A DNA stretch of 64,000 bases from Colwellia sp. PAMC 20917 (GTDB taxonomy: Bacteria; Pseudomonadota; Gammaproteobacteria; Enterobacterales; Alteromonadaceae), in the NCBI RefSeq assembly GCF_001767295.1, contig NZ_CP014944.1, forward strand, positions 434,001 to 498,000, in the 5' to 3' direction. A program made the position numbers and the translations under genes. The notes beneath the pieces are model-generated. The model was not told where the DNA came from, ran no database searches, and saw only the letters and a list, made by a program, of their open reading frames with translations. Numbering within the stretch: position 1 is the stretch's first letter; each line of letters starts with the position of its first letter. Below, one piece after another: positions 6,511 through 23,276 of the stretch.

Positions 6511-6511
6511 T

Positions 6512-6538: not shown

Positions 6539-6566
6539 GATTTATTCCACTAAATCTTCTACTTTA

Positions 6567-6772
6567 GATAATGATTACTCATTACAGCATAGGCACAGAC
6601 GTCAATCGCAAAGACTTCGATAAGAAAGTGTAACTTATCCTCTGCGGTGCTCAAAGCTTTGGCCTGACAAGGCATCTTCGCCACATAGAAAAGCGCATAG
6701 AACACAACGTGCAACACAATGATGATAGAGGGTGTCTACTAAACTGATTTGTTGTTTCCTTGGCATAGCCAT
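6567..6772 (-). pseudogene. Decayed IS200-like / REP-associated tyrosine transposase (5' fragment)
   Basis: Translating the minus strand from the ATG at 6772 gives MAMPRKQQISLVDTLYHHC, then CGEDALSGQSFEHRR. After a frameshift the stretch AEDKLHFLIEVFAIDVCAYA-VMSNHY continues in another frame. This is the characteristic opening of Y1 transposases of the RAYT group; their HUH motif follows MSNH. The fragment stops at that motif, and the catalytic part is missing. A plausible ribosome binding site (GGTGAG) precedes it. It marks past mobile-element activity between the metal operon and the tRNA-Leu fragment. Confidence 0.75.
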
Positions 6773-7264: not shown

Positions 7265-7478
7265 AGTCGACTTAAATTTAAAAATAGCATTGTAACAAGT
7301 TTACTAAATATTGACAGACTTATGCGTTTAACTCAGGTAAAAGTGCAGAAAGAACTTTAAGGAAAAGTTAATATTCTCAGTGGGCTGATAACAGACAACA
7401 GACATAGATATTATTCTCAACCTAAGTTACCACCCCCTTCAAATTAACGCGTCTAGTGATTCAGTGATTTAATGCAAT

Positions 7479-7509
7479 AAAAAAGGCTTACATTGCTGAA
7501 GCCTTTTTT
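7479..7509 (-). terminator. Intrinsic terminator downstream of the tRNA-Leu 3' fragment
   Basis: AAAAAAGGCTT, a 9-nt loop, then AAGCCTTTTTT: an 11-bp stem with a T tract on both strands. It lies 8 bp beyond the CCA end of the tRNA fragment, where a tRNA operon would end. Confidence 0.85.
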
Positions 7510-7516
7510 ATAGTAT

Positions 7517-7569
7517 TGGTGCGATGGAGAGACTCGAACTCTCACGACCTAAGTCACTACCCCCTCAAG
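7517..7569 (-). pseudogene. 3' half of a tRNA-Leu (truncated at the anticodon loop)
   Basis: The minus strand reads CTTGAGGGGGTAGTGACTTA, continues through the variable arm, a perfectly paired T stem (GAGAG/CTCTC) with loop TTCGAGT, and ends ATCGCACCA. Aligned by eye with the intact tRNA-Leu(GAG) at 22653-22737 it matches at 44 of 53 positions, and the T-stem differences are compensatory. The sequence 5' of the anticodon loop is not tRNA, so the 5' half is absent and this cannot be a working tRNA. Half-tRNAs ending at the anticodon loop are typical attachment-site footprints of integrases. It bounds the left end of the respiratory island. Confidence 0.75.
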
Positions 7570-8079
7570 AATGTTCACCTAAACGAAGTAAAAACAATAT
7601 ATACAAAGGCTTACAAGTAAATACCTATACTATTGGTTTAAAAATAGTAGCAGTACCAGTCATTTGACATCAATCGCTTAAATCTGTATTAGCAACCAAG
7701 ATAATCAATAACTTTTCTAACCATTAAGTTATTTTCTTTTGATTATTCTTTGCAGTTGTAACTTTTTAGATTAAATAATCTATGGCGGTTTCGCCCCCAC
7801 ACCGCCATAGAAACAAAATTTATGACAACTGTATGATCGGCAAGTTGATGTCTAATTCAAGTGTTTTTTTTCTTCTATATTTCCCCGAAAAACATCTTAT
7901 GATGGTAACAAAAATCTCGTTAGTTAATGAGTTTAAAAAATAAATTTATCTTCAGAATTTAAAGCAATTAATAAATAAAAAGGTGTATCTGCTCAAAAAC
8001 ATTCCATTTATTGATGTGTTCGACCTTTTAAAAAATAAAAAAGCATAATATAAGATCATACATTTAAGGAGAGTTTAGT
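7570..8079. other. Intergenic region, left end of the respiratory island
   Basis: 510 bp with no coding sequence I can support. It is AT-rich and holds one strong palindrome (7779-7811). An AAGGAG ribosome binding site at the very end serves the prenyltransferase gene. I see no integrase, and no convincing FNR or CRP box. Confidence 0.6.
7779..7811. repeat. Strong palindrome, 11-bp GC-rich arms
   Basis: TCTATGGCGGT and ACCGCCATAGA flank the 11-nt loop TTCGCCCCCAC. It is GC-rich in a very AT-rich stretch, 268 bp before the first island gene. No proper T tract follows on either strand, so it is not a standard terminator. It could be a REP-like element, a recombination site or a regulator site. 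Confidence 0.65.
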
Positions 8080-9069
8080 ATGTCAGAAGCTATTTGGGTT
8101 AAAGCATTAAGAACAGTACCGCAAGTTGATAAAGCACAGTGGAACACTTTAAGTCTGTTCACAAGATGGTTAATTGCCTCTCGATTTTCTGTGACCATCA
8201 TGACATTTAGTTCAGCAATTATTGGTGTGCTTGTCGCACTAAGTCACGGTTCAATTGATGTCGGAATGTCAATGTTATGTATATTAGGTTTAGTGCTTGC
8301 CCATGCGACCAATAATTTACTCAACGATTACACTGACTCAGTTAGAGGGGTAGATAAAGGGAATTATTTTCGCACTCAATACGGCACACATGTATTAGAA
8401 GGTGAATTGCTGACAAAAAAACAACTGATGAGTTATATCATTATTAGCGGTTTATTAGCTATATTCTGTGGTGCAGTGATCATCTATTTACGAGGAATTG
8501 AGGTGCTATGGTTAATGCTCATAGGTGCCTTTTTTGTTTTGTTTTATACTTGGCCCTTAAAGAAACTAGCGTTAGGGGAATTGTCTGTTTTACTTGTTTG
8601 GGGACCATTAATGGTTGGCGGGACATATTTCGTCGCGAGCGGCGAATGGAGTGTTGCATCTGCACTAATAGGTACATTGTATGCCTTAGCACCAACGGCG
8701 GTTATTTTCGGTAAGCATATTGACAAAATAGATATGGATAAAAGCAAAGGCATTTATTCACTCCCTGTTTTACTGGGAGAAAAAAAATCTCGTAAAGTTG
8801 CACAAATCATCATGTTAAGCCAATACGCTTTAACTGGTTACCTATATATAAATGGGTATTTGGGATTAGGCGTTTTATTACTACTACTTGCCTTACCAAC
8901 GCTTATACAAACATTAAATGTCTTTAACCAAATACGTCCCAATGAAATGCCACAAGGATTTCGCCAAGAAGTATGGCCATTATGGTTTGCTCCCCATGCT
9001 TTTCAATATACCAGACGGTTTAGTTTGTTTTTTTTATTAATGTTAGTCGTTGAAAATATTCTCGTTTAG
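8080..9069 (+). CDS. UbiA-superfamily prenyltransferase (MenA-like candidate)
   Basis: Integral-membrane enzyme that joins a polyprenyl chain to an aromatic ring; 329 aa with about eight to nine hydrophobic helices. Both diagnostic Asp motifs are visible: NNLLNDYTDSVRGVD (about residues 86-100) and DKIDMDKSKGIYSLP (about 213-227), which bind the Mg-diphosphate of the prenyl donor. Nothing in the sequence fixes the aromatic acceptor. Its position as first gene of a unit ending in a Wolinella-type fumarate reductase suggests a naphthoquinone (menaquinone-type) product; that is inference. AAGGAG lies 8 nt before the ATG. The next gene starts 55 bp downstream on the same strand. Confidence 0.82.
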   Translation: MSEAIWVKALRTVPQVDKAQWNTLSLFTRWLIASRFSVTIMTFSSAIIGVLVALSHGSIDVGMSMLCILGLVLAHATNNLLNDYTDSVRGVDKGNYFRTQYGTHVLEGELLTKKQLMSYIIISGLLAIFCGAVIIYLRGIEVLWLMLIGAFFVLFYTWPLKKLALGELSVLLVWGPLMVGGTYFVASGEWSVASALIGTLYALAPTAVIFGKHIDKIDMDKSKGIYSLPVLLGEKKSRKVAQIIMLSQYALTGYLYINGYLGLGVLLLLLALPTLIQTLNVFNQIRPNEMPQGFRQEVWPLWFAPHAFQYTRRFSLFFLLMLVVENILV

Positions 9070-9124
9070 CGTAATTCACCTACAAACACCAATAAAAATC
9101 ACGGTATTATAAAGGATCAGCTAA

Positions 9125-11473
9125 ATGAGCAATGTTCAATTTTCGCTTAAAAAGCTTACAGGTAATTTCAATTCATCATTATTTTTAATGTCTACGTTAA
9201 GCTGTACGGTATCTGCGGGCGAGCCACAAGCTTTGCAAAGTGCACAAGATGCTAGTTCGCACGACAAAGACATAGAGGTAATCATTGTTACTGCGCAAAA
9301 ACGTGTTGAAAACATATTGGAAGTCCCCATTTCTATCGCAAGTTTTAATAGTGAAACAATTGTGAAAACAGGTATTCGACAGTTAAATGAAATTGCTGAA
9401 TTTGTGCCCAATTTAAGCATGACCACCACCAATGACTTTTCTTCCAGTATTACTATCCGTGGTGTCGGCTCATCAAGTCGAAATATTGGTTTTGATGCCA
9501 GGGTTGGGTTGTATCTTGATGGTGTTTATGTCGGACAGTCCCCTGCACATAATCAAGATTTATTAGATCTTGAGCGTATTGAAGTTCTACGTGGTCCTCA
9601 GGGGACGCTATTTGGCAAAAATAATGTCGCGGGGTCAATCAATCTAATTTCTCAAAAGCCGGAAGATGAATTCGGTAGTACTGTTGGTTTTTCCGTTGGT
9701 AATTATGATTTAAAGCAGATTACAGCCATGGTCAATGCACCGATTGGCGACAATGTAGCGACTAAATTTAGTTTTAATCAATATGAACGAGCAGGCTTTA
9801 CCGAGAATGTAACAACAGGAAATTGGTTAAATGAGCAAGACAGTTACGCGTATAGAGGGCAAATAAAAGCAACACCTTTTGACAATATTGAAGTGAACTT
9901 TTCTTTTGATAGATTACATTCAGATCGTTTATCATTTGACGGTGAGCCAATTACCAACACGTTAGGGAACGCCAAAAATTCGGAATCATCAGCGCGTAAT
10001 AAGGTCAGTTTTGACGTGGACCCTCATGAAAACAGAGATATTAAGGGAGAAATACTGAACATTGACTGGGACATAAATAACAATTATTCCATCAAATCAA
10101 TTACTGGGCATAGAGACGTTTATGTTCAATATATTAACGATTTTGACTTTTCCACAGAGTCAGTTTCCTATTTAGATTACATTGATGACTACGACCAGTG
10201 GAGTCAAGAACTTCAGTTGATTTCTCCAGAAGGCGATTTTCAATATGTCGCTGGTTTGTATTATTATCAACAAGATGCTCACACCAGAAGATTACCAACA
10301 GTGGGTGATGAAACACTCTCTCTTTTTACGGGAGTTCCACGTAGTGCTGTTGAATTTGGTGCTTCATTAGGCGATCCTACCTCAATTTTTATGTTAGCAG
10401 CATTTCATCCTGGCAACCTTAGTACAGTAGGCGATGTTGAAACAACAAGTTACGCGGTTTTTTTTAACAGTAATTATCAATTTAATGATGACGTTACGTT
10501 GGACTTGGGGTTTCGTTATTCTCGCGAAGAAAAAAATGTTGATTGGACAATTTCGAGCATAGATCCTGTCACCAGTATTCCAGTTATTCCCATATTTGAA
10601 TTAGCTAATGGTCAAGTGGTTGATAAAAGAGGTGATAATGATTTCTCTCCTTTAGTTTCGCTAAACTATCGTCTCGGCGAGCAGATCAATACTTACATAA
10701 AATACGCCACAGGTTATAAAAGCGGTGGTTACAATGTTGATTTTTTAACACAGGCACAACTTGACGCTGGGATAGAATTTGACAAAGAAACCGTTGAGAG
10801 TTACGAAATTGGCATTAAGGGGCATCTGTTTGATCAACGTGTAACCTTTAGCAGCGCGGCTTTCTATTCGACATATGATGATTATCAAATCAATCAGTTG
10901 ATAAACCTTGCCGCAGGTACAACAGCATTAAGTATACGTAATGCCGCAAAGGTGGAAACGCGTGGCCTGGAATTTGATTTACAGTATCGACTGACAAGTG
11001 ATTTATCGATAAATGTAGCAGTAGGTTTGCTTGATGCTGAATTTGCCAAATTTCCCGGTGGTGGTAGTAACGGGGAAGACCTCTCTGGCGCAAAGCTATC
11101 TGGTGTTTCAGATTTCACGTTCAATTTAAGTGCTCAGTATTATTATCTATTACCAGCGCTTAACGCAGAATTGTCTTTGTTACTAAGTTATAACTATCAA
11201 GATGATTACAATACCGATCTCGACGGTTTATCTCAAATAACCCTTGCCAATGGTGACGCTATTGCTATCGGACAGGTAGACGGTTTTGGCATTGTTAACG
11301 CAAGTGTGGGGATAGAGCCCTTAGGGAGTGGCGTTAGTCTCTTTTTATGGGCTCGAAATCTGGCCAGCGAAAATAGTGCTATTATTGTTGCTGAAAAGAG
11401 TTTTTTTGGCACAAGACGTAATGTCTATGTTAGTCCACGAACCTTTGGACTTACTGTAAAATATACGTTTTAA
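9125..11473 (+). CDS. TonB-dependent outer-membrane receptor
   Basis: 782 aa. Order: a weakly hydrophobic signal region (FLMSTLSCTVSAGEP); a TonB-box-like segment followed by VTAQKRVENILEVPISIASF; a plug domain with LERIEVLRGPQGTLFGKNNVAG and INLISQKPEDEFG; a 22-strand barrel rich in aromatic strands; and a C-terminal F (TFGLTVKYTF), as required for outer-membrane assembly. Such receptors import scarce large ligands using TonB energy. Nothing here identifies the ligand. Placement between a prenyltransferase and frdCAB, 62 bp before frdC, suggests it is expressed with the respiratory genes, which is unusual for a receptor. AAGGAT lies 10 bp before the ATG. Confidence 0.92.
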   Translation: MSNVQFSLKKLTGNFNSSLFLMSTLSCTVSAGEPQALQSAQDASSHDKDIEVIIVTAQKRVENILEVPISIASFNSETIVKTGIRQLNEIAEFVPNLSMTTTNDFSSSITIRGVGSSSRNIGFDARVGLYLDGVYVGQSPAHNQDLLDLERIEVLRGPQGTLFGKNNVAGSINLISQKPEDEFGSTVGFSVGNYDLKQITAMVNAPIGDNVATKFSFNQYERAGFTENVTTGNWLNEQDSYAYRGQIKATPFDNIEVNFSFDRLHSDRLSFDGEPITNTLGNAKNSESSARNKVSFDVDPHENRDIKGEILNIDWDINNNYSIKSITGHRDVYVQYINDFDFSTESVSYLDYIDDYDQWSQELQLISPEGDFQYVAGLYYYQQDAHTRRLPTVGDETLSLFTGVPRSAVEFGASLGDPTSIFMLAAFHPGNLSTVGDVETTSYAVFFNSNYQFNDDVTLDLGFRYSREEKNVDWTISSIDPVTSIPVIPIFELANGQVVDKRGDNDFSPLVSLNYRLGEQINTYIKYATGYKSGGYNVDFLTQAQLDAGIEFDKETVESYEIGIKGHLFDQRVTFSSAAFYSTYDDYQINQLINLAAGTTALSIRNAAKVETRGLEFDLQYRLTSDLSINVAVGLLDAEFAKFPGGGSNGEDLSGAKLSGVSDFTFNLSAQYYYLLPALNAELSLLLSYNYQDDYNTDLDGLSQITLANGDAIAIGQVDGFGIVNASVGIEPLGSGVSLFLWARNLASENSAIIVAEKSFFGTRRNVYVSPRTFGLTVKYTF

Positions 11474-11535
11474 TTGTTCTGAAATATTTAACCTGAATAG
11501 TATTTACTAAAGAAATTATAAAGGCTGAATTTAAA

Positions 11536-12282
11536 ATGATAACAAAAATTAACCGATGGCCTGCAAGATTAGATTTAATACAAAGTAGCACGGGATTAAT
11601 TCTCGCATTGTTTATGTGGGCGCATATGTTTTTTGTCTCTAGCATTTTAATCAGTCACGACGCTATGTACTGGGTATCCAAAATGTTTGAAGGAGAACCT
11701 ATATTTGGAGAACCCTACCCTATTTTAGTTTCTATCGTGGCATTGATTATTTTTACATTTATTTTTATTCACGCTGCCTTAGCTCTGAGAAAGTTTCCAA
11801 CCAAAGAAAAAGAAATTACCGCGTTGCATCTTCATTTAGCACGCTTTAAACATGGTGATACGCTCTTATGGTATGTCCAGGTATTGACTGGTTTTTTATT
11901 GTTTTTTCTCGCCAGCATTCACTTGTATCAACTTATGCTACACCCAGCAGATATTGGCCCTTACGCGTCTTCTGATAGAGTATGGTCTGGGCGGATGTGG
12001 CCCTTATACTTAATTCTATTATTTGTAGTTGAAATTCACGGTGGTATTGGTTTATATCGATTGGCAATGAAATGGGGATGGTTTGTTGGTAAAGATATAA
12101 AGAAAGGCAGAAAACGATTACAACGACTAAAATGGGCACTCACTCTATTTTTCCTGATGTTGGGTTTAACGACACTTCAAGCCTACATTAAAATTGGTTA
12201 CGAACACGCCGGTAAGGTTGGTGAAAGGTATGTTCCTGCTAATAAAGTGTTACTTCAACCTTATAAAAAATTGCCAGAATAA
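11536..12282 (+). CDS. frdC: Dihaem cytochrome b subunit of Wolinella-type quinol:fumarate reductase
   Basis: Membrane anchor that oxidises quinol and carries two b haems; 248 aa, five helices. It resembles Wolinella succinogenes FrdC along its whole length (e.g. [26 protein letters not shown], then [19 protein letters not shown]). The four expected axial His are present at 30, 79, 129 and 168. E52 falls where the menaquinol-site Glu66 of Wolinella lies, and E166, two residues before His168, matches the E-pathway Glu180. This is the single-subunit dihaem anchor, not the FrdC/FrdD pair of E. coli. It starts 62 bp after the receptor, and frdA follows after 2 bp. Order frdC-A-B as in Wolinella. 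Confidence 0.92.
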
Positions 12283-12284
12283 TC

Positions 12285-14326
12285 ATGAAAATAATACACA
12301 CTGACGCTTTAGTTCTAGGTGGCGGATTAGCCGGATTAAGAACCGCAATAGGTATGAAGAAACGAGGTCATGAAGTTATTTCACTTAGTTTAGTACCTCC
12401 TAAAAGATCTCATTCATCTGCCGCACAAGGCGGTATGCAAGCAAGTTTAGCAAATAGTGTAAATGGGATAGGTGACAACGAGGACTTACATTTTGTTGAT
12501 ACCATTAAAGGCAGTGATTGGGGGCAGATCAACAAGTGGTTCGAATGTTTGTCGATACTGCCCCAAAAGCAGTTAGAGAACTTGCTGCATGGGGTGTACC
12601 GTGGAATAGAATAGAAAAAGGTGACCAACAAAGTGTTATAGACGGCAAAAAAGTGATTTTAACCGAACCTGAAAACGCACACGGGCTAATTACGGCAAGA
12701 AACTTTGGTGGCACACAAAAGTGGCGAACTTGTTATGTTGCAGACGGTACGGGTCACTCAATGTTATATACCATGAGTAATCAGGCCATAGCTAACAACA
12801 TTCCTGTTCACGAAAGAATGGAAGCCTTGTCATTAATTCATGATGGAAAACAATGTTTTGGTGCTATTGCTCGAAATCTTATTTCAGGCGAGTTAGTTGT
12901 TTATATTGCCAAGGTGACCTGCATTGCGACTGGTGGGTTTGGTCGAATCTACCGTTCCTCCACAAACGCGGTCATTAATGAAGGTATAGGTGCGGCACTC
13001 GCATTAGAAACAGGGATTGCTTCACTTGGAAATATGGAAGCAGTACAATTTCATCCAACGGCCATATTCCCTGCAGGAATTCTCGTCACGGAAGGTTGTA
13101 GGGGTGACGGCGGTTTATTGTTAGATGTTAATTTACATCGTTTTATGGCTGATTATGAACCTGAAAAGAAAGAACTCGCCTCACGTGATGTTGTTTCTCG
13201 TTGGATGGAAACTCATATAGCAAAAGGTTACGGCGTAAAATCCAGATTTGGCGAACACTTATGGCTTGATATAAGGTTACTTGGTGAACACCATATCAAT
13301 ACAAAATTACGAGAAGTAAAAGAAATTTGCCAGTACTTTCTCGGTATAGATCCCGTGAAAGACCTTATTCCGGTTAGGCCAGCACAACATTATTCAATGG
13401 GAGGAGTTAGAACAAACCACAAAGGACAATCTCCTAGCCTCTTAGGTTTATATTCGTGCGGTGAAGCTGCTTGTTGGGATATGCATGGATTTAATCGCTT
13501 AGGTGGTAACTCAGTCGCTGAAACGGTAGTGGCTGGTATGATTGTAGGCGAGTATATGGCTGACTTTTTAGATAGCAATGCTTGCGATATTAATATATCA
13601 ACAGCACTGATAACAGATTTTTATGAAAAAGAAAAAAACAAACTTGCCGCTTTTTATCAAGAAAGTAACACAGAGAATCCATTTGAAATCATGAGTGAAA
13701 TGCAAAATATCATGACAAAAAATGTCGCGATATTTAGAAATAAAACTAAGCTTGTCGAAGCCATAGAACAGCTAAAAGCATTACGTATAAGAGCTAAGAA
13801 CATTCGTGTTCATTCAAATGCTAAAGGTACAAACCCAGAACTAGTTGCCGCATATCGCGTACAAAAAATGTTAAAACTATCTTTATGTACTACCTATGGC
13901 GCACTGCAAAGAGAAGAAAGTCGAGGAGCCCATAGTAGGGAAGATTTTCCTCTACGAGATGATAAAAGATGGTTAAACCGTACGTTAGCAACATGGCCTT
14001 GTGAGCAAGATGAACTTCCAACATTGCAGTATGAGCCAATCAACATAAAAGCAATGGAAATGCCACCGAGTTGGCGCGGATATGGTGCAAAAGACAGGAT
14101 TGATCATCCTGATACGGCTATTAGACTTGAAGAAGTAGAAAAAATCAAAAAAGAAAATAATATCTGTAAAGATAGTATATCTAAAGGGATTGCAGCCAAA
14201 GACATTGAAGCTCAAGACATTGAAGCTCAAGACAAAGAGATTTTACAAACCAAATTGATGCCCTATAAACACTTACTTCCTGAAAAATTCAGGGGAAAAA
14301 ACGCTCGATTATCGGATGAACAATGA
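12285..14326 (+). pseudogene. frdA: Fumarate reductase flavoprotein subunit, interrupted by a 1-nt frameshift
   Basis: Catalytic FAD subunit reducing fumarate to succinate. The first frame (12285 to about 12525) carries the dinucleotide fold [13 protein letters not shown] and [15 protein letters not shown], whose His binds FAD covalently. From about 12520 to 14326 the protein continues in another frame: [51 protein letters not shown] (active-site Arg) and QHYSMGGVRT. One extra G in the GGGGG run at 12520-12524 would restore [15 protein letters not shown], the family sequence, giving about 680 aa. As written the product stops at 12614. The C-terminal tail holds a short AQDIEAQDIEAQD-type repeat. 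frdB overlaps the end by 4 bp. Confidence 0.9.
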
Positions 14327-15099
14327 TGGCTACAAATAACGTAGATTCAAATAATATTCCTGTGATTCAAATCGATACACCACGAATATTAACATTCAAT
14401 ATTTTTAGGCATAATCCTGTCGATGAAAATAGCGAGGTACGCACCCAAAAATATACCGTTGAAGAAGCGCCTTCAATGACATTATTTATCGCACTCAACG
14501 AAATAAGAGAAATACAAGATCCTACATTACAATTCGATTTTGTTTGTAGGGCAGGAATTTGTGGAAGTTGCGCGATGTTAATAAACGGACAGCCTAGTTT
14601 AGCCTGTAGAACGTTAACGAAAGATCATCCCGATGTAATTAACTTAGCTCCATTACCGGGTTTTAAATTAATTGGCGATTTAAGTGTCGACACTGGTCAA
14701 TGGATGCGCGGTATGTCAGAAAGACTTGAAACATGGATTCATTTACAAGAAACATCAGTAGATCTCGGTAAGATAGAAGAAAAAATGGAGCCGAAACTGG
14801 CAGAAGACATCTATAAATTAGACCGTTGCATAGAATGTGGTTGCTGCATTGCAGCATGCGGTACTGCACAAATGCGAGAAGACTTTATTGGTGGCGTTGG
14901 CTTAAATCAGATCGCCAGATATAGACTTGATCCTAGGGATGCACGAACTGACGCTGATTATTATGAAGTAATAGGAACGGAAAACGGAGTTTTTGGTTGT
15001 ATGACATTACTCGGTTGTGAAGATACTTGCCCCAAAAATTTACCTTTAGCGGGGCAGATAGCATACATGAGAAGAAAAATGGCATTCGTCAAAAGCTAG
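14323..15099 (+). CDS. frdB: Fumarate reductase iron-sulfur subunit
   Basis: Electron-transfer subunit between the haem anchor and the flavoprotein; 258 aa. The N-terminal ferredoxin-like domain has CRAGICGSCAM and the later Cys in LACRTL for [2Fe-2S]. The C-terminal domain has CIECGCCIAACG for [4Fe-4S] and CMTLLGCEDTCPKNLPL for the [3Fe-4S]/[4Fe-4S] pair. The sequence ending GQIAYMRRKM matches the Wolinella-type enzymes. The start overlaps the frdA stop (ATGATGG; either ATG could be used), so the subunits are translationally coupled. It is the last gene of the plus-strand unit that begins at 8080 and is convergent with the cytochrome gene at 15130. Confidence 0.94.
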   Translation: MMATNNVDSNNIPVIQIDTPRILTFNIFRHNPVDENSEVRTQKYTVEEAPSMTLFIALNEIREIQDPTLQFDFVCRAGICGSCAMLINGQPSLACRTLTKDHPDVINLAPLPGFKLIGDLSVDTGQWMRGMSERLETWIHLQETSVDLGKIEEKMEPKLAEDIYKLDRCIECGCCIAACGTAQMREDFIGGVGLNQIARYRLDPRDARTDADYYEVIGTENGVFGCMTLLGCEDTCPKNLPLAGQIAYMRRKMAFVKS

Positions 15100-15129
15100 A
15101 GTAATGGAGTCCTATATAATTAAACCCAA

Positions 15130-15699
15130 TCAATCTTTAGGCATTTTGTGTGCAAGACCTTTATGACAATCAATACAAGTTTTGTCTTTCTTTTTCATAT
15201 CTTCAATATCATGCTTTTTACGTGCTCTTTTACTTTGTTTTTCAAGATCCCATCGGTTTTGATCATGACATGAACGGCATTCACGTGAATCCGTCTCTTT
15301 CATTTCATCCCAAACACGCTGAGCTAAAAACCCACGTTTTTTCTCAAACTTTTCAGCTGTATTAATAGAACCTAACATCATGTGCCATACTTCACGCATT
15401 GCAACGGTTTTACGGATCATTTTGGGGACAAACTCTTTTGGTAAATGGCAATCTACACACGTTGCAACTACCCCAGATTGAGAGTTGAAATGGTGAGTTT
15501 CTTTGTATTCTTTAAACGGTTCACTCATACCATGACAAGAGACGCAAAACTCTTCTGTGCTGGTTGCAGTTAAAGACGCATTAAATCCGGCCAAGAACAT
15601 AACACCAATGATAAAAAAAACTAATCCGCCTAAAGGAATACCAAAATAATACCAAGCCTTAGGAGCGTTCCACAACTTTTCTTTCCAAGATGGTTTCAT
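15130..15699 (-). CDS. NapC/NirT-family tetraheme quinol dehydrogenase (CymA-like)
   Basis: Membrane-anchored periplasmic cytochrome c that takes electrons from quinol and passes them to periplasmic partners; 189 aa, close to CymA (187). One N-terminal helix (AWYYFGIPLGGLVFFIIGVM) precedes four haem sites: CVSCH, CVDCH, CRSCH and CIDCH, the last in CIDCHKGLAHKMP, a family hallmark. It is cotranscribed with the diheme cytochrome 9 bp upstream (15709). Shewanella CymA feeds both fumarate reduction and the MtrCAB conduit; the island here has both kinds of terminal route, so a hub role is a reasonable inference. Confidence 0.92.
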   Translation of the reverse strand: MKPSWKEKLWNAPKAWYYFGIPLGGLVFFIIGVMFLAGFNASLTATSTEEFCVSCHGMSEPFKEYKETHHFNSQSGVVATCVDCHLPKEFVPKMIRKTVAMREVWHMMLGSINTAEKFEKKRGFLAQRVWDEMKETDSRECRSCHDQNRWDLEKQSKRARKKHDIEDMKKKDKTCIDCHKGLAHKMPKD

Positions 15700-15708
15700 A
15701 ATAAATAC

Positions 15709-16314
15709 CTACTGCTGACTTGCATAATAATGTAACAGTGCGTTAATTTGTTCTTCTGATAATTGATTGATTTTTTTCAGCATTCCCTCTTCTGTTTTAC
15801 GCGTACCTGCTCGGTAATCTTTAAAGGATTGCGCTAAAAATGGCTTCCATTGCCCAGCTAAAATACCTGAGTCGTCATCAGCTGAAGTACCTCCATCCTC
15901 ATGACATTTTGTACATCTGTCTTCATGAAGCTTTTCACCTGTTTTTGCTAAGGCAATATCAAAGTTTTGTTTTGCGGGAATAAACGTTTGTTCAGAATAA
16001 TAGGTTGCTAGTACCTCAATATCTTCTTCTGAAAGTTCTCTAGCAATTAACAACATATCCGTTTCTGGGCGTTGAGTATCACCATGTCTGAATTTACTTT
16101 TACGTGCAATTCGGCCTTCATCAAGATAGACATCAAACATCGCTGTAATTGTTGCTTCAGAATAACCACCAATACTTGGAATATCTGAATCGCTACTGAT
16201 TCCTTTTGCGCCATGACAGTCATTGCACATAATAATAGTATCTTCTATCGAGGCTGCTATTGTAATAGCAGAAGCAAAGATAAGAAGAAATATACAAAGT
16301 TTGATCTTGATCAT
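15709..16314 (-). CDS. Periplasmic diheme cytochrome c (c4-like)
   Basis: 201 aa. A cleavable signal peptide (FLLIFASAITIAAS) is followed by two class I cytochrome domains, with haem sites CNDCHGAKG (about residue 30) and CTKCHEDGG (about residue 136). Distal Met candidates exist in each half (TDMLL; EGMLKKI). The two-domain layout is that of cytochrome c4-type electron shuttles. It is first in a two-gene minus-strand operon with the tetraheme dehydrogenase and divergent from the decaheme lipoprotein, sharing a 280-bp control region. Likely job: carrying electrons between the CymA-like enzyme and the outer-membrane conduit. That is inferred from the neighbourhood. Confidence 0.88.
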   Translation of the reverse strand: MIKIKLCIFLLIFASAITIAASIEDTIIMCNDCHGAKGISSDSDIPSIGGYSEATITAMFDVYLDEGRIARKSKFRHGDTQRPETDMLLIARELSEEDIEVLATYYSEQTFIPAKQNFDIALAKTGEKLHEDRCTKCHEDGGTSADDDSGILAGQWKPFLAQSFKDYRAGTRKTEEGMLKKINQLSEEQINALLHYYASQQ

Positions 16315-16466
16315 GTTTTTTACTCCAAAAGGTATTAATTAGTTAAAAATCAAGCTACTTTTTCAATATATATACTAGTATCTATAAATAACTTTACCAT
16401 TTTATCCCAAAAATAAAGTGAAATTAGATGTTTATCAAGAGTTAACACTTGAGTAATGAGATTCCC

Positions 16467-16480
16467 TTGACATAGATCAT
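16467..16480. promoter_or_regulatory. FNR-type box between the divergent cytochrome operons
   Basis: TTGACATAGATCAT matches the FNR consensus TTGAT-n4-ATCAA at 8 of 10 defined positions. It lies about 115 bp upstream of the decaheme lipoprotein start and 153 bp upstream of the diheme cytochrome start, within the only shared control region. The 9-mer GTTAACACT occurs on both sides of it (16441-16449 and 16492-16500). Oxygen control would suit the genes; binding itself is inferred. Confidence 0.45.
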
Positions 16481-16594
16481 ATTTAAATACCGTTAACACT
16501 CCGATAATAATAAAAAAGAAATTACAACCCTTATTGGAAAATAGCTATTTGAAAATTTAAACACTCTGACTCTCAATTGCTGATGGAGCTTATG

Positions 16595-18862
16595 ATGGAA
16601 AACAATAATAAATGTAACCTGAAACAACTTTTAACCAGTTTTGCACTTGTTAGTGTACTTGCATTTTCTGGTTGTGGTGGTGATACGGGACCTACGGGAG
16701 AAACAGGTTCTGAAGGACCTGTTGGTGATACTGGAGCTGATGGTACGGCAGCAGCACCAACAACATCAAGACAAACAGCGGTGATGGACTCTGCAATTAC
16801 TAATGCAACTATTGCTACAGATGGTGCATTAACCGTTGAATTTACAATCGAAGATGATGTAGGGGTTGGTTATAGTGCGCTTAAAAGCAGCCAAGTACGC
16901 TTTACCTTAGTACAATTAACGCCTATTGATGCTGTTACAGGTGAGCCTTCAAAATGGCAAAGCTATATTAATACAATCGAAAGCGCGCCAACAGATCCTA
17001 GTAACGGCCCAGGAACAGAAGATGCAGATCAAGCAACTTCTGAAAAAGCCAATGATGACGGTGGCATTTTTACCAATAATAATGACGGCACTTATAGTTA
17101 TACTTTGGCAACCAATGTAATGAATGTAACCTCTCCTGTTGCCGTAACTTACAATGCCGATTATACCCATAGAATTGCTTTTCAAATAAGTGGCAGTGGT
17201 TTTCCTACAATGAATCGATCGTTCGATTGGCAACCTTCTACAGGAGCAACAACGAATATTGATAATCGTAAAATGGTAGTTGAAGGTACGTGTAATGCTT
17301 GTCATGGCGAGTTAGCGCTTCATGGTGGTGGTCGTGTAGATATGGCTTATTGTGTTACTTGTCATAATCCAGGTAGTGTTGACGCAAACAGCAGTGAAAG
17401 TGTTGACTTTAAAGTAATGATACACAAAATTCACCGTGGTGCTAACCTTCCCTCTGTTGTAAATGGTGGTGAATATGCTATTTGGGGATATCGAAATAGC
17501 AAGCATGATTACTCTGATACGCATCTTCCACAAGATATTCGTAATTGTACGAATTGCCATGATGATACCAGCGCTGAAACTCCTGATGCTATAAACTTTA
17601 AATCTCAGCCGTCTATTGAAGCATGTGGTTCATGTCATGATGATGTTAATTTTGCAACGGGCGTAGGTCATCTTGCAGGAGCTCAAGCAGACAATAGTTT
17701 ATGTCAAACTTGTCATGGTACTTCTGGTTTCTCATCTGTAGAGAAGAACCATACTGATGTGATGTCAAATGTTGATATCGCACGTACAGCGATTGTAACA
17801 CAAGCGAAAGCGACTCGAATTGACCTTGCAACCGGTAATGTTGAAGTAGATGTCATGATTACTTTAGAAGGTGAACCTGTTACGGCGCTACGCGATATTA
17901 GTGATGTAGATACGGCACAAGGTGCTAAATTTGGTAAGTATGGTTATGGTACTGACAATGGCGCTATTGCTATTAACTGGGACAACGGCACGGGTTATCA
18001 ACTCAATCACCAAGAAGTAGTTTTTAATGACTGTATAGCTGACGGAGCTGGTTTGTTTACTTGTACAGCTACGGGGCTTTTAGCAGGTATTACCGCAACA
18101 GACGTTGTGACTGTAACACCAGTAGATGTTTTAGTGTGTATGAATGAAAAAGACGGTGCGATTGTTCGTTGTGACTCTCCTGAAACAAATACTATGAAGG
18201 TTGCTCAAATAGAGTCAACACCTTCAATTGTATTCTTCAAAGGTGATGGAACTATCACCACTGAAGGTTACGATAAAATTGGCGCAGATATAACCGCTTG
18301 TCAAAGCTGTCATGCCGACAATAAATTCCACCATGCCTCTACTGACTTAACACAATGTAAAACCTGTCATAATGCTACACGTACTGGTTATAGAGGTTTA
18401 GGTGACTTAAAACGTCATGTCCATCGCTTACATTCTGGTTTAGATAAAAATGCACTTGATGACTCTAACCCAGAACAAATAGATCACTTCCCTGGAAATA
18501 TCGACAATTGTGGGCAATGTCATACAAATGATCAATTCAACTTGCCAATACAACAAAATACTCGTGCTTCTATTGCTCGTGGTGCAAGTGATAATGTTTA
18601 TATAAGTCCAACTGCGGTTGTCTGTGGAAGTTGCCATCTTAATGTTAAATTAGGTTTAATTGATCCAAGATTACCAGGGTTAATAGATCCCGCTAAAGGT
18701 AGCATTGATACTAAGGGACAAGCCCTTATAGATCATATGATACAAAATGGCGGGATATTTGGCGCAGCAGCATTTGATGAGGCTAATAAAGTTGAGTCAT
18801 GTGCAGTGTGTCACGCTATTGGTGCAGAATTTGGTGTCGACAAAGTACACGAAATAAAATAA
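16595..18862 (+). CDS. OmcA/MtrC-family decaheme surface lipoprotein cytochrome
   Basis: Predicted cell-surface terminal reductase of an MtrCAB-type conduit; about 755 aa. A lipoprotein signal ends LAFSGC (lipid-bearing Cys). A collagen-like Gly-X-Y stretch follows (DTGPTGETGSEGPVGDTG...), then a beta domain. There are two groups of five haem sites: CNACH, CVTCH, CTNCH, CGSCH, CQTCH, and after a second beta domain CQSCH, CKTCH, CGQCH, CGSCH, CAVCH. This two-by-five layout is that of MtrC/OmcA. I chose the ATG at 16595 because GGAG lies 6 nt upstream; the ATG at 16592 is also possible. The 117-bp gap to the next gene and shared strand suggest one operon with the MtrA- and MtrB-like genes. Confidence 0.93.
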   Translation: MENNNKCNLKQLLTSFALVSVLAFSGCGGDTGPTGETGSEGPVGDTGADGTAAAPTTSRQTAVMDSAITNATIATDGALTVEFTIEDDVGVGYSALKSSQVRFTLVQLTPIDAVTGEPSKWQSYINTIESAPTDPSNGPGTEDADQATSEKANDDGGIFTNNNDGTYSYTLATNVMNVTSPVAVTYNADYTHRIAFQISGSGFPTMNRSFDWQPSTGATTNIDNRKMVVEGTCNACHGELALHGGGRVDMAYCVTCHNPGSVDANSSESVDFKVMIHKIHRGANLPSVVNGGEYAIWGYRNSKHDYSDTHLPQDIRNCTNCHDDTSAETPDAINFKSQPSIEACGSCHDDVNFATGVGHLAGAQADNSLCQTCHGTSGFSSVEKNHTDVMSNVDIARTAIVTQAKATRIDLATGNVEVDVMITLEGEPVTALRDISDVDTAQGAKFGKYGYGTDNGAIAINWDNGTGYQLNHQEVVFNDCIADGAGLFTCTATGLLAGITATDVVTVTPVDVLVCMNEKDGAIVRCDSPETNTMKVAQIESTPSIVFFKGDGTITTEGYDKIGADITACQSCHADNKFHHASTDLTQCKTCHNATRTGYRGLGDLKRHVHRLHSGLDKNALDDSNPEQIDHFPGNIDNCGQCHTNDQFNLPIQQNTRASIARGASDNVYISPTAVVCGSCHLNVKLGLIDPRLPGLIDPAKGSIDTKGQALIDHMIQNGGIFGAAAFDEANKVESCAVCHAIGAEFGVDKVHEIK

Positions 18863-18979
18863 CTTATTACTATAGTCGCAAAGTTATTTAAGTTATAACC
18901 AATAAACACAAAGGCGAATTGCTCTTGGTTTATTAAAAATAAATAACTAAATAATAACAATAAATAAGAGTGAAATTCA

Positions 18980-20011
18980 ATGCGAGATATTCTTAAAACC
19001 TTTTTTTCGGTCTTACTCTTTATCCCTCTCATGTCATCAACGAGTTTTGCCGAAAACAAACCCAATTCTCCCGAAAAAAATAAAGCAGAAAAAACGGTAA
19101 CATCAGCCAAGCCTTTAACCGCTGATCAACTTGACATTTTACTCGTTAAAAAGTTTAAACAAGGCAAATATTCTAAAAAAGGTGCTGACAGTTGCCTTAA
19201 ATGTCATGACGGAGACTCTGACAGTAATGCCATGGGTATTTTTAATAATGTTCACGGCCGTCAAGATGTTAAAAATTCGCCATTTTCACAGTTACAATGT
19301 GAAAGCTGCCATGGTCCTGCAGGCAAACACACGGCAAGAGTAAAAAAAGGCAAACTTAGAGAGCCTGTTATTACATTCGGTAACCACTCTCTTGTTGATG
19401 CCGATAAACAGAACAGTGTTTGCATGAGTTGTCATGAAGATAGACAACGTATTGCATGGCAAGGTAGTTCACATCAAAGTGAACAAGTCCCCTGTGCGTC
19501 TTGTCATCAAGTTCATGAAGGGCAAGATCCTATTTTGTTTAAGCAACAACAAAATAAATTATGTGGTAGTTGTCACAAAGAACAATTGCATGCCATCAAT
19601 AAACGTTCTAGTCATCCGTTAAAATGGGGACAAATGGCTTGCTCTGATTGTCATAACCCACACGGTTCTTTTTCTGAGCATGAATTACAACGGCCTTCAA
19701 TTAATCAAACCTGTTATCAGTGTCATAGTGAAAAACGTGGACCATTGCTTTGGGAACATGCCCCTGTTGCCGAAGATTGTAGTGTCTGCCATGACTCCCA
19801 CGGATCTATTAATGCAAATATGCTTAAACAACGTACGCCACAAATATGCCAAGATTGTCATACACCAGCAGATCACCCTTCAACGGCGATTGCGGGTAGT
19901 CAGTTTGTTGAAAATACCCAAAGTACGTTTGCTCTTGGACAAAATTGTATGAATTGTCACAGCTTAATTCACGGCAGTAATCACCCTGCTGGTCATACTT
20001 TTCAACGCTAG
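18980..20011 (+). CDS. MtrA/DmsE-family periplasmic decaheme cytochrome c
   Basis: 343 aa with a signal peptide (FFSVLLFIPLMSSTSFA) and ten evenly spaced haem sites: CLKCH, CESCH, CMSCH, CASCH, CGSCH, CSDCH, CYQCH, CSVCH, CQDCH and CMNCH. The segment CESCHGPAGKHTARV and the recurring CxxCHxxHG pattern are typical of MtrA, PioA and DmsE. Known members sit inside an MtrB barrel and wire electrons across the outer membrane. The next gene encodes exactly such a barrel, 29 bp after the stop. DmsE homologues serve DMSO reductases, but no dmsAB genes are present, so an MtrA-type conduit role is preferred. Confidence 0.94.
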   Translation: MRDILKTFFSVLLFIPLMSSTSFAENKPNSPEKNKAEKTVTSAKPLTADQLDILLVKKFKQGKYSKKGADSCLKCHDGDSDSNAMGIFNNVHGRQDVKNSPFSQLQCESCHGPAGKHTARVKKGKLREPVITFGNHSLVDADKQNSVCMSCHEDRQRIAWQGSSHQSEQVPCASCHQVHEGQDPILFKQQQNKLCGSCHKEQLHAINKRSSHPLKWGQMACSDCHNPHGSFSEHELQRPSINQTCYQCHSEKRGPLLWEHAPVAEDCSVCHDSHGSINANMLKQRTPQICQDCHTPADHPSTAIAGSQFVENTQSTFALGQNCMNCHSLIHGSNHPAGHTFQR

Positions 20012-20040
20012 TGCTAAAATTAATGTTAAGGAGAATACCA

Positions 20041-22203
20041 ATGAACAACACCACCTATAAACTACTCCTTAATAGCATCACGCTTGCTATTTTTGTTTGT
20101 TTTTCTGCAACTAGTTTGGCAGATGGATTTCGTTTACAAGATGCTAATACCCAGAAAGTCAAAAAAGAAAAATGGCTCTGTAAATATTGTCCCGACAATA
20201 CGAAATCAGTAGCAAAAATTAGCGTTAATTTGTCGAATAATTCTGAAGATAATGGGCATTTTTCTACAATAACGGGAGAACAAAAAGATGGCACTTATGC
20301 TCACCTTGACGCTGAACTATCGCAAAGATCACAAAATACACATTATCAAGTTCAAGCCAAAGGTTTAGGCAAAGATAATAGTTATGCTCATTTATCGGCT
20401 ACTAAATTAAATAGCTATAAAATTTCGTTAAATTACCAGACACTTAATCAGTTTGGTCATGCTCAGGGATTAACCCCTTTTACTAATGCTGGTAATGCCT
20501 CATTGCTTCTGCCCAGTGACTGGCAGCGAGTAGCAACAACCGCTGAAATGTCTAATCAGCAATTTTCAGAATTTGACCAAAAAATAGAAAGACAAAACTG
20601 GCAGTTGGCAGCAGAAACTAACTTCACGAATAACTGGCAAGGTTACATTGATTATCAATACCAAGATAAACAAGGTTTACGCTCCACCAGTGGCAACATT
20701 CTCACCAAAACCGTTATATTACCTGAAGGAATTAACCAGCAGCATAATCAACTGGATGCTGGCAGTTATTATCAATATGACGATGTTACTTTATTAGTTA
20801 ATTATTATCACAGCGACTTTAGCAATAAACGATCCGTAGTGAATTGGAATAGCCCTTATGCGGTTGTATTTGGTGGTGCCAATAATGGACAGTTATCTGG
20901 CTCACCAGATAATGAATTTGATCAAATCAGTATTTTTGGCAATTATCGCGATAATAGTTTAACCCTTCAAGCTCGATTGATTTATGGACAACTATCACAA
21001 ACAGATGATTTTTTATCTTATAGTTCAAATAATCTACTGGAAGCAGATAGCTTACCTACCACTCATTTAGATGGTCAAATAAATACTTTTTCAACGCATT
21101 TAAAAGCGTTATTCAGAACCGATAACAAGTGGCGTTTAACGGCTAACTATCATTTTCAAGATCGTGATAACAAAACGCAAAGTAATTCGTATCAACACAT
21201 ATTAACAGACAGTGCTATTTTACCTGATTTGATTACTAATAATACCTATAGTTTTAAAAAAGAAAAACTCACATTGGAAGCGCAATATCGTTTTACCATT
21301 CAATCTCATTTATCAATGGGCTGGAAATTAAAACGACAAGAACGTGATTTTCAAGATAGAAAAAACACCAAAAATGAAAAATTCTGGTTCAAAGTTTCAA
21401 CCCATTTTGCTCCTTTTAATAAAGTCTACGTAGAGCTATCCAAGCAATTTCGTGATGGCAGTAGTTATAATCGTATAGATAAAACATCACCTATTGACAG
21501 TACACTGCCAATACAAATGAAAGTGCAAAAATATTACCAAGCGGATCGTCAAAGAGAACAAGCCAAAGGACATTTATCTTTAAATCCTTTTAACAGTAGC
21601 TTAAACAGTATTTTAATGAACACCGAAGTTGCTATTGAAGTCTATTTCTCTCGTGACCAATATCAACATACTGATATTGGATTGATAGAAAGTAAACGTA
21701 ATGGTGTTGATCTTTCTGTTAGCACACAATTATCGAAACGTATTTCATTAGTTGCTTATACTCATAACCAATGGCAAGAAAATATCAGCCAAGGTAGTTA
21801 CTGGGACAATGATGTAGACTGGTTAAGTAACCAAGATGATAAGTCTGACAGTGTAGGAATAAATCTAGCAGCAGAAAAGTTGGCTGATGGTAAATTAACG
21901 TTAGCGGCAGATTACACCTATTCATATACAAGTGGCATTACACAAGTTAATTCATTGTCACTAAATTCTAGTGACAGTCACAAAGAACTGGTGATCAATT
22001 CTCATCATCTCAATATATATGCAGACTATAATTATTCTGACCAAGTTGATTTGCACTTAGGTTTGTTATACCAAAAATTTAGTGAAAACGATTGGCGTTC
22101 TGAATATGATATAGATCGCATAATTAACGTGCTTGGCAATGGTTTATCTAACTATGACTACGATGCTTACAGACTAACCACGGGAGTGACTTATCTGTTT
22201 TAA
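20041..22203 (+). CDS. MtrB/PioB-family decaheme-associated outer-membrane beta-barrel
   Basis: Outer-membrane porin sheath for the MtrA-like cytochrome; 720 aa from the ATG at 20041, which has AAGGAG 7 nt upstream. The signal peptide (LLLNSITLAIFVCFSATSLA) is followed by the WLCKYCPD CxxC motif that marks MtrB N-termini. The rest is alternating-strand barrel sequence rich in Y, Q and N. The protein ends with the aromatic strand TTGVTYLF. Known MtrB needs its CxxC near the N-terminus for function. It is the last gene of the MtrCAB-like unit. Confidence 0.93.
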   Translation: MNNTTYKLLLNSITLAIFVCFSATSLADGFRLQDANTQKVKKEKWLCKYCPDNTKSVAKISVNLSNNSEDNGHFSTITGEQKDGTYAHLDAELSQRSQNTHYQVQAKGLGKDNSYAHLSATKLNSYKISLNYQTLNQFGHAQGLTPFTNAGNASLLLPSDWQRVATTAEMSNQQFSEFDQKIERQNWQLAAETNFTNNWQGYIDYQYQDKQGLRSTSGNILTKTVILPEGINQQHNQLDAGSYYQYDDVTLLVNYYHSDFSNKRSVVNWNSPYAVVFGGANNGQLSGSPDNEFDQISIFGNYRDNSLTLQARLIYGQLSQTDDFLSYSSNNLLEADSLPTTHLDGQINTFSTHLKALFRTDNKWRLTANYHFQDRDNKTQSNSYQHILTDSAILPDLITNNTYSFKKEKLTLEAQYRFTIQSHLSMGWKLKRQERDFQDRKNTKNEKFWFKVSTHFAPFNKVYVELSKQFRDGSSYNRIDKTSPIDSTLPIQMKVQKYYQADRQREQAKGHLSLNPFNSSLNSILMNTEVAIEVYFSRDQYQHTDIGLIESKRNGVDLSVSTQLSKRISLVAYTHNQWQENISQGSYWDNDVDWLSNQDDKSDSVGINLAAEKLADGKLTLAADYTYSYTSGITQVNSLSLNSSDSHKELVINSHHLNIYADYNYSDQVDLHLGLLYQKFSENDWRSEYDIDRIINVLGNGLSNYDYDAYRLTTGVTYLF

Positions 22204-22597
22204 ACTTTAACCATATAATCACATAATTTATTTTTAAAAGATAATTGACCAGGGCAAGAGCATTTAGCTTACTTCTGCAAGTAACTCAGCATTACGCTCT
22301 CCGCACAAGTTAGCATTCTTAATAAACAGCTAAATAAGTACTTACCCATCAGAACACTCTAAACAACGATCTTTAGATACTTCTCGAACATTTAGAATCA
22401 CAATGCATTATTAAGATTAAGTGTATTGATTTGATGGTTTGGTTGGCATTTGAAAGTCGATAAATTGAGTGGCATATCAGATTAAAAATATAAATTTTAT
22501 CAAACATCAATACGAGCATAAAATCAATGTCAGGAAAATAACCACTGAGTTTTCCAACCTGCCAGGAATAATTAGCAACCAATTAGTAACTAAACGG
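22204..22597. other. Non-coding region at the right end of the island
   Basis: 394 bp between the barrel gene and the tRNA-Leu terminator. I find no coding sequence with family resemblance, no integrase and no clear hairpin terminator for the plus-strand operon. It looks like decayed or acquired sequence and may hold the right boundary of the island. Confidence 0.5.
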
Positions 22598-22628
22598 AAA
22601 AAGACCAATTCATCACGAATTGGCCTTT
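22598..22628 (-). terminator. Intrinsic terminator of the tRNA-Leu gene
   Basis: On the minus strand, AAAGGCCAATTC, loop GTGAT, GAATTGGTC, then TTTTT. It lies 24 bp beyond the CCA end of tRNA-Leu(GAG). Confidence 0.88.
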
Positions 22629-22652
22629 AGGTATCTGTATATATAAATTTAG

Positions 22653-22737
22653 TGGTGCGGTTGGGGGGACTTGAACCCCCACGACCTAAGTCACCAGCCC
22701 CTCAAGCTGGCGCGTCTACCAATTCCGCCACAACCGC
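22653..22737 (-). tRNA. leuU: tRNA-Leu (anticodon GAG)
   Basis: 85-nt cloverleaf ending in an encoded CCA. Acceptor arms GCGGTTG/CAACCGC pair fully, followed by discriminator A. The anticodon stem CCAGC/GCTGG holds loop TTGAGGG (GAG). A long class II variable arm (TGACTTAGGTCGT) and T stem GGGGG/CCCCC with loop TTCAAGT are present. It reads CTC/CTT leucine codons. The order tpiA-secG-tRNA matches the enterobacterial glmM-secG-leuU neighbourhood. A perfect 13-bp inverted repeat flanks the gene on both sides (22641-22653 and 22743-22755). Confidence 0.98.
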
Positions 22738-22815
22738 GCAATACTAAATTTATATTATCTTTCTTACTAAGTTAACTTGCTCATTTTGAGGTAAATAAGC
22801 CTACTTAACTTTTAG

Positions 22816-22865
22816 ACTAGCAGTCCCATCAAGTGTGGTGCGTCTAACAATTCCGCCACATCTGC
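22816..22865 (-). pseudogene. Degenerate tRNA-Leu, 5' portion only
   Basis: The minus strand reads GCAGATGTGGCGGAATTGTT then AGACGCACCACACTTGATGGG. It follows the 5' half of the intact neighbour (GCGGTTGTGGCGGAATTGGT, AGACGCG, anticodon region) through the D arm and into the anticodon arm, then loses resemblance. The acceptor and anticodon stems can no longer pair, and no 3' half follows. It lies 78 bp upstream of the intact gene, just after secG. Confidence 0.7.
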
Positions 22866-22877
22866 ATTTTTAAAACT

Positions 22878-23276
22878 TTACTTTGGAATGTCGTTATCAT
22901 TCGCTTTCTTAGTCGCTGCAGGAATATCGCTATTCCCTGATGACTGACCTGGCTCTACACTTTCGCTAGGGATTGATGCATCACCTGGTATAGTTTGCTC
23001 TACAGGAGTGTTTAAGTTGTTCCACTCATCGGTAGATTTAATTCTATTTGCCGTTAAGTTACCTAACACTAAGCTGATAACAAAGAACGCTATAGCTAAC
23101 CATGTAGTCGCTTTAGTTAAAAAGTTACCTGAGCCACTTGAACCAAATATTGTTGCTGAAGAGCCGGCACCAAAAGATGCGCCCATATCTGCGCCTTTAC
23201 CTTGTTGGATTAAAACTAAACCAATTAAACAAATTGAAACAATTAAATAAGCAATAATTAACGATTGATACAACAT
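22878..23276 (-). CDS. secG: Preprotein translocase subunit SecG
   Basis: Small membrane subunit of the SecYEG export channel; 132 aa. Two helices (LIIAYLIVSICLIGLVLIQQ and TTWLAIAFFVISLVLGN) flank the conserved cytoplasmic loop GKGADMGASFGAGSSATIFG. The C-terminal tail is polar and low-complexity, as in many gammaproteobacteria. It begins 1 bp after tpiA and precedes the tRNA-Leu region, the conserved neighbourhood. Confidence 0.96.
   Translation of the reverse strand: MLYQSLIIAYLIVSICLIGLVLIQQGKGADMGASFGAGSSATIFGSSGSGNFLTKATTWLAIAFFVISLVLGNLTANRIKSTDEWNNLNTPVEQTIPGDASIPSESVEPGQSSGNSDIPAATKKANDNDIPK

Follow-up and report, generated by a model that had tools for sequence, protein, structure and literature searches.

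An MtrCAB island of Colwellia that splits a tRNA-Leu gene and may carry its own quinone-building step

Gene clusters for the electron conduit MtrCAB have been described as mobile, with pdsA and cymA beside mtrCAB and with Colwellia and Thalassotalea among the holders of one type (Group 2); in another type (Group 4) frdABCD adjoins mtrCAB, and one Shewanella insulae cluster sits between tandem tRNA-Leu genes (Baker et al. 2022; PMC8805035). According to the same article, transfer of an mtr cluster would be sufficient if the recipient already has the genes for cytochrome maturation and menaquinone. Here we describe a 15,255-bp inserted segment (positions 7570..22824, strandless) in a window of 64,000 nucleotides, the whole stretch of DNA analyzed, from the chromosome of Colwellia sp. 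PAMC 20917 (genome G000, a single contig of 4.68 Mb). The segment lies between the two parts of a split tRNA-Leu gene, is absent from that place in the nearest relative (G001, whose GlmM is 99% identical to that of G000), and joins an MtrCAB conduit, PdsA and CymA to a fumarate reductase, a TonB-dependent receptor, and a UbiA-superfamily prenyltransferase.

Bacteria that build a quinone from an outside precursor are also on record. Lactiplantibacillus plantarum has no full quinone pathway and possesses a gene for a 1,4-dihydroxy-2-naphthoic acid (DHNA) prenyltransferase; its extracellular electron transfer (EET) depends on exogenous quinone, and after growth in DHNA the cells contain the menaquinones MK-6 and MK-7 (PMC10746273). 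In a menC mutant of Shewanella, reduction of anthraquinone-2,6-disulfonate was restored by DHNA (PMC6687433).

The gene block of the island extends from UbiA to MtrB (8080-22203). On the plus strand, a MenA-like UbiA-superfamily prenyltransferase (8080..9069; Pfam UbiA, 2e-27) is followed by a TonB-dependent receptor (9125..11473; Pfam plug and barrel), which is also the neighbor of UbiA at the loci L059 and L077, and by the genes of a Wolinella-type fumarate reductase: the dihaem cytochrome b FrdC (11536..12282; NF010072, 357 bits, cut-off 187; PDB 2bs2_C, 233 bits), the frameshifted flavoprotein FrdA (12285..14326; C-terminal frame NF006383, 930 bits, cut-off 663), and the iron-sulphur subunit FrdB (14323..15099; NF010071, 407 bits, cut-off 264). 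Because the gaps from UbiA to FrdB measure only 55, 62, 2, and -4 bp, the five genes appear to form one operon. Two genes on the minus strand encode a CymA-like tetrahaem NapC/NirT quinol dehydrogenase (15130..15699; Pfam PF03264, 1.4e-65; TIGR02161, 215 bits, below the cut-off of 311) and a periplasmic dihaem shuttle whose best NCBIfam match is PdsA (15709..16314; NF049874, 182 bits, below the cut-off of 330). The conduit genes follow, adjacent and all on the plus strand: an OmcA/MtrC-family decahaem cytochrome (16577..18862; TIGR03507, 489 bits, cut-off 209), an MtrA/DmsE-family decahaem cytochrome (18980..20011; TIGR03508, 301 bits, cut-off 192; PDB 6r2q_A, 366 bits), and an MtrB/PioB-family outer-membrane barrel, which starts at an ATG within a frame listed from 20011 (20041..22203; TIGR03509, 380 bits, cut-off 240; Pfam MtrB_PioB, 402 bits, cut-off 23).

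The curated NCBIfam cut-offs are thus passed by MtrA, MtrB, MtrC, FrdB, FrdC, and the C-terminal frame of FrdA, while UbiA, PdsA, and CymA match their families and stay below the cut-offs. The original prediction, made from the letters of the sequence, had named a CymA-like protein, a dihaem cytochrome, MtrC, MtrA, MtrB, a UbiA protein, and a TonB receptor, and family and position bear out every one of them, as they do the motif counts: 4 CxxCH in CymA, 2 in the dihaem cytochrome, 10 each in MtrC and MtrA, and one CxxC in MtrB. The fumarate reductase that it also named holds as regards the FrdC and FrdB genes and fails as regards frdA, which is not intact. FrdC retains four haem-ligand His and two Glu of the Wolinella enzyme, at positions that we take to be those of the haem ligands and the proton path. 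The electron conduit is likely to be directed outward. Base composition was rejected as a marker of foreign origin, the GC content per 1-kb bin being 33 to 41% in the island and 32 to 44% across the window.

CymA and Wolinella-type fumarate reductases use menaquinol, and both outlets of the island would ordinarily require a quinone of low potential. A menD gene over cut-off was found in none of the six genomes of the genus, G000 included, and in only 2 of 395 genomes of the family; a third family genome (G132) has a menD match of 174 bits, below the cut-off of 244. MqnA/MqnD (PF02621) were found in none of 19 genomes tested, G000 among them. The named genomes that served as positive controls gave menD over cut-off in 7 of 14 cases and PF02621 in 4 of 14. 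Judged from these genes (menD and PF02621) alone, the host seems unable to make menaquinone, and the description of the island as a full electron-transfer set is not supported: neither a menD over cut-off nor MqnA/MqnD was found in the genome, and frdA is frameshifted. Elsewhere on the G000 chromosome lies a second, distant MenA-like UbiA gene (L113 9188-10087), present in G001 and G005 as well, in a genus without menD over cut-off.

The best NCBIfam match of the island UbiA is an unspecific prenyltransferase model (98 bits), followed by five MenA models (88 to 62 bits); the sole 4-hydroxybenzoate model among the matches listed scores 26 bits. Its first aspartate-rich motif, NLLNDYTD, is at residue 79. 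The sole PDB relative by sequence is human UBIAD1. UBIAD1 prenylates menadione in animals. The predicted UbiA structure (predicted local distance difference test score of 53) was too poor and was not used. We hold a naphthoquinone role of UbiA to be more probable than not.

Close relatives of this UbiA are rare. Five of the 395 family genomes, G000 included, hold one of at least 74% identity, and the other 368 genomes of the class sample contain no close UbiA (best 33%). A scan of genome contigs gave three relatives: one of 77% (L077), one of 49% in a Chloroflexi bin, and a distant one of 25%. Island-type UbiA genes occur in linkage with TonB receptors and with fumarate reductases of two types. 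The receptor is its neighbor in three genomes, together with FrdCAB in G000 and G263 and alone at L077, and in three g10 genomes (L110, L111, and L112) UbiA adjoins FrdA and FrdB of another type. At L110, where the families were checked, E. coli-type FrdC and FrdD also lie by UbiA, and the opposite side has a dienelactone-hydrolase-like gene and a BenE-type aromatic acid transporter; judged by their open reading frames (ORFs), the other two g10 loci look alike. The g10 genomes have no menD over cut-off, a status that comes from the same draw of 395 genomes, in which menD was found only in other genomes, and their loci are a second candidate for quinone scavenging. L077 belongs to “Candidatus Colwellia aromaticivorans” (UbiA 77% and GlmM 82% identical to those of G000), where the UbiA and TonB receptor pair (10001-13451) has no frd or mtr homologues within 21 kb. 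The UbiA of the Chloroflexi metagenome-assembled genome (L078 10001-10996; 49 to 50% identical) is preceded by genes resembling a dehydrogenase complex.

We examined 16 of the 17 genomes with close mtr genes (G223 was left out), taking a stretch of about 20 kb per locus. A UbiA-like gene is present at 5 of 14 mtr loci in menD-less genomes and at neither of the two in menD-bearing ones. In G193, G094, and G239, all three menD-less, the mtr locus is flanked by a gene of a second, less closely related MenA-like type, which is in each case convergent with its neighbor. Since nine menD-less loci have no UbiA-like gene, the link between UbiA and mtr loci is a tendency and no rule.

We propose, with a probability of about 0.42, that the island UbiA supplies a low-potential naphthoquinone for CymA and the fumarate reductase in a host that seems to lack a menaquinone route. 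The island of about 15.3 kb inserted into the native tRNA-Leu gene at its anticodon loop and brought a complete replacement tRNA-Leu. UbiA would then prenylate a naphthoate head group with host polyprenyl diphosphate; the head group would be scavenged from outside and may be obtained from neighbors, and the TonB receptor is a candidate for its entry. Host dehydrogenases would reduce the resulting naphthoquinone pool, and the quinol would pass electrons by way of CymA and then PdsA to the surface conduit MtrCAB or, as a second outlet, through the Wolinella-type FrdCAB to fumarate. We infer the substrate of UbiA, the scavenging, the ligand of the TonB receptor, and the direction of electron flow. 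That the mobile island, by way of one naphthoquinone-building enzyme, enables a bacterium that lacks a menaquinone pathway to export electrons from the cell by an EET that depends on cross-feeding, and does so while splitting a tRNA gene and carrying a complete replacement, is a wider claim that we regard as doubtful.

Several observations weigh against a naphthoquinone supplied by UbiA. The protein scores below every MenA cut-off. The nine menD-less mtr loci without a UbiA-like gene within about 20 kb gained none when extra flanks were added for G008, G082, and G043, and a whole-genome UbiA match at E 1e-10 is missing in 9 of the 14 menD-less mtr genomes, a figure that is an upper limit, since one of the nine, G239, was found to contain a UbiA-like gene. 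The TonB receptor resembles siderophore receptors; its top two PDB matches, the pesticin receptor and a pyrroloquinoline quinone transporter, are similar in the plug region only, and it may import the head group or iron. The flavoprotein gene of the fumarate reductase is broken (see below). L. plantarum can do without dmkA for EET when exogenous quinone is given (PMC10746273).

The same observations leave room for a different assignment, in which MtrCAB, CymA, and PdsA use ubiquinol or rhodoquinone, or run inward to ubiquinone, and UbiA and the TonB receptor have an unrelated role, for example in the traffic of iron or siderophores. The nine loci without UbiA, the siderophore-like receptor, and the lack of menD over cut-off in 393 of the 395 family genomes are all as this assignment would have them, and inward, Mto-type electron use is known in iron oxidizers. 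Against it stand the presence in the same cassette of a fumarate reductase whose FrdC has the Wolinella residues, the fumarate reductase of another type that adjoins the same UbiA type in g10, the fact that ubiquinol is a poor donor to fumarate, and the MenA scores of UbiA, far above that of the 4-hydroxybenzoate model. We consider this assignment somewhat improbable.

The insertion itself can be read base by base. In G001 a single, unsplit tRNA-Leu gene lies directly after secG. In the window, the displaced 3′ part of the original tRNA-Leu with its terminator marks the left edge (7478..7569, minus strand; 94 columns, 94% identical to L053 2573-2666 of G001, E 5e-32), the tRNA portion being a 53-bp fragment (7517-7569) whose first base is also that of the anticodon loop. 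The right edge consists of the end of secG and the displaced 5′ part of the same tRNA (22825..22887, minus strand, tRNA part 22825-22865; aligned to L053 2520-2581). On G001 the two edge alignments share 9 nucleotides, CTTGAGGGG, the first of which is the first of the anticodon loop; a single mismatch is present in the right copy. An intact tRNA-Leu(GAG) lies within the insert (22653..22737, minus strand), identical to the tRNA of G002 and G003 and of a different sequence type from the split native tRNA, and the spacer upstream of it (22738-22824) resembles the secG-leuU spacer of G002 and G003. The comparison indicates that the native tRNA-Leu was split by the insertion and that the insert delivers a complete replacement tRNA. 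Left of the left edge is a piece that we read as an older, decayed tRNA-Leu (about 7415..7455, minus strand); its local alignment score is 35 against the intact tRNA-Leu, for which the best of 2000 shuffles reached 26, and 43 against the G001 type.

In the original prediction the island was bounded by a 3′ tRNA-Leu half on the left and the intact tRNA-Leu on the right. Both sequences are real, and they are not the boundary pair: the missing 5′ part lies farther out, at about 22825-22865, so the insert contains the intact tRNA. A short shared stretch, a tRNA part displaced to the far end, and an empty site in G001 are found as in tRNA-targeted islands of the tyrosine integrase kind, with which the locus also shares insertion at the anticodon loop. 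Unlike the usual case, the target tRNA was not rebuilt: the native gene stays split, the insert supplies a separate complete tRNA with its own upstream spacer, and no integrase gene was found among the insert ORFs of at least 80 amino acids by the ORF list and Pfam and NCBIfam family searches.

This missing integrase invites the view that the tRNA pieces and the intact tRNA arose by local duplication and homologous recombination rather than through a site-specific integrase. Consistently with such an origin, the tRNA and spacer of the insert resemble the chromosomal leuU region of congeners, and G005 (L055 16900-17400) carries two 5′ tRNA-Leu pieces in tandem before its intact tRNA-Leu and resembles the window for more than 300 bp downstream of the tRNA as well. 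On the other hand, the cut lies at the edge of the anticodon loop, where tyrosine integrases cut (PMC8371274), with the 9-nucleotide shared stretch in G000 and the same base 40 in G005; G002 has the N-terminal region (216 amino acids) of a phage-type integrase about 660 bp downstream of its tRNA-Leu; and the DNA 3′ of leuU differs among the congeners, except for a 648-bp stretch common to G001 and G002. We hold an origin by recombination to be unlikely.

In G005 a similar spacer follows each of the two 5′ pieces, one of which is clear and ends at tRNA base 40, where the shared stretch also ends, while the other is more decayed. This arrangement suggests repeated insertions at the same anticodon loop. 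In G004 a 192-bp match to the left flank of the window was found. The DNA that abuts the island on that side (window 1-6570) holds, as read from the ORFs, an efflux cluster with an outer-membrane factor and M56 peptidase-like and BlaI-like genes. Its homologue is on a different contig in G001, and the UbiA-Frd cassette of G263 likewise has an efflux-like cluster beside it (L059 4344-10193).

Gene order at secG/leuU and the MtrA phylogeny agree with the claim of the original prediction that the block was horizontally acquired. A tRNA-Leu adjoins secG in all five congeners, none of which has MtrA, so that G000 alone of the six genomes of the genus holds it, and the target in G001 is unsplit. Across the family, MtrA is found in 36 of the 395 genomes at E 1e-3, 17 of them close (E <1e-70) and 19 weak. 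The nearest are those of G263 (85%), G008 (80%), and G193 (79%), which come from three other genera. They group with G000 in a 17-row tree (support 99/99), which rejects the genera g8 (p 1.8e-46) and g52 (p 4e-4) as clades, other members being placed elsewhere; long branches come together where the G000 group joins the G056/G116 group, which makes that join uncertain, and the G122 row is long. Protein identity alone was rejected as proof of transfer: GlmM identities to G000 (88% for G263, 84% for G008, 76% for G193) are close to those of MtrA, and the case for transfer therefore rests on the tree test and the split tRNA. On these two lines the island was almost certainly acquired horizontally.

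G263 also has UbiA-TonB-FrdCAB (79 to 87% identity), placed after MtrB and not before CymA; given this difference in position, the order in which two cassettes were joined appears to differ between G000 and G263. CymA is the least similar of the ten genes to its G263 homologue (60%). In G263 two genes separate MtrB from UbiA; they gave no NCBIfam or Pfam match and resemble flhDC-type regulators by eye only. Carriage on plasmids was considered and rejected. For UbiA there were matches in 22 plasmid records, each with less than 60% identity and with less than 80% of the query covered; MtrA matched 13, of which one, a 2.1-Mb Photobacterium record, covered more than 80% of the query at 48% identity. 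No UbiA relative was found among viral contigs.

The break in frdA deserves separate treatment. The gene is read in two overlapping frames (12285-12614 and 12518-14326), so that the break lies within 12518-12614, and an intact flavoprotein subunit of the Wolinella type is not present in this sequence. Wolinella FrdA nevertheless matches the C-terminal frame at 727 bits, and FrdC, FrdB, and this frame each score above the cut-offs of the Wolinella-type families. The FrdA homologue of G263 is intact (665 amino acids), and the other nine island genes are unbroken. The ratio of nonsynonymous to synonymous substitution rates against G263 is 0.095 for the downstream part of frdA, within a range of 0.07 to 0.19 over all ten genes. 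We surveyed frameshifts in 31 ORFs of G001, those with >70% identity to the window. A single alignment covered <95% of the ORF in five of them; two of these reach the window edge, two fall short by about 11 end residues, and one is frameshifted. The last is an efflux-system gene (window 2405-3636; homologue L068:6667-7902), broken at a short G run, as frdA is. Both breaks point to base-calling errors or recent mutations, and a base-calling error behind the frdA break is plausible because the second frameshift among the 31 ORFs is also at a short G run. That the island arrived recently and is decaying or silent, giving no respiration, as the broken frdA and the missing known menaquinone route might suggest, is quite improbable in view of nine open genes, the low substitution ratios, and the plausible sequencing artifact.

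Much of what the island contains is already known: mobile mtrCAB with pdsA and cymA, frdABCD beside mtr, and the tRNA-Leu setting in Shewanella insulae. The island resembles the clusters of Baker et al. (2022) in its core conduit with PdsA and CymA. It differs in its fumarate reductase, a Wolinella-type FrdCAB where the Group 4 neighbor is frdABCD, and in its host, where the menaquinone genes that those clusters presume in the recipient (menD, MqnA/D) were not found. The UbiA and TonB receptor genes have no counterpart by name in the main text of that article, in which “UbiA,” “prenyl,” and “TonB” do not occur. The suggestion that this exact combination was undescribed is therefore upheld for these two genes as far as that main text goes, and does not extend to the mobile mtrCAB-pdsA-cymA unit, its presence in Colwellia, or the placement of frd beside mtr (PMC8805035).

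In the literature searched, no mtr island carrying its own quinone step is described. With the quinol:fumarate reductase of Wolinella succinogenes (PDB 2bs2 and 1qlb) the island shares the subunit families, the haem His, and both Glu of FrdC; unlike it, the island enzyme is in a genome where no known menaquinone route was found, and its frdA is frameshifted. The likeness to L. plantarum, as known from the published account, lies in a quinone auxotroph that keeps a DHNA prenyltransferase and uses an outside precursor for EET. L. plantarum is Gram-positive and presumably lacks MtrCAB, whereas the island unites a conduit and a prenyltransferase, with scavenging as a putative step only.

The insertion represents an unusual use of a tRNA target without loss of the tRNA. 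By the measure of menD, the menaquinone condition set for recipients by Baker et al. (2022) is unmet in 393 of the 395 family genomes, yet 17 of the 395 hold a close MtrA. If some islands bring their own quinone step, the spread of extracellular respiration would be less constrained than thought, and, if this is true, horizontal spread may depend on precursor-producing neighbors.

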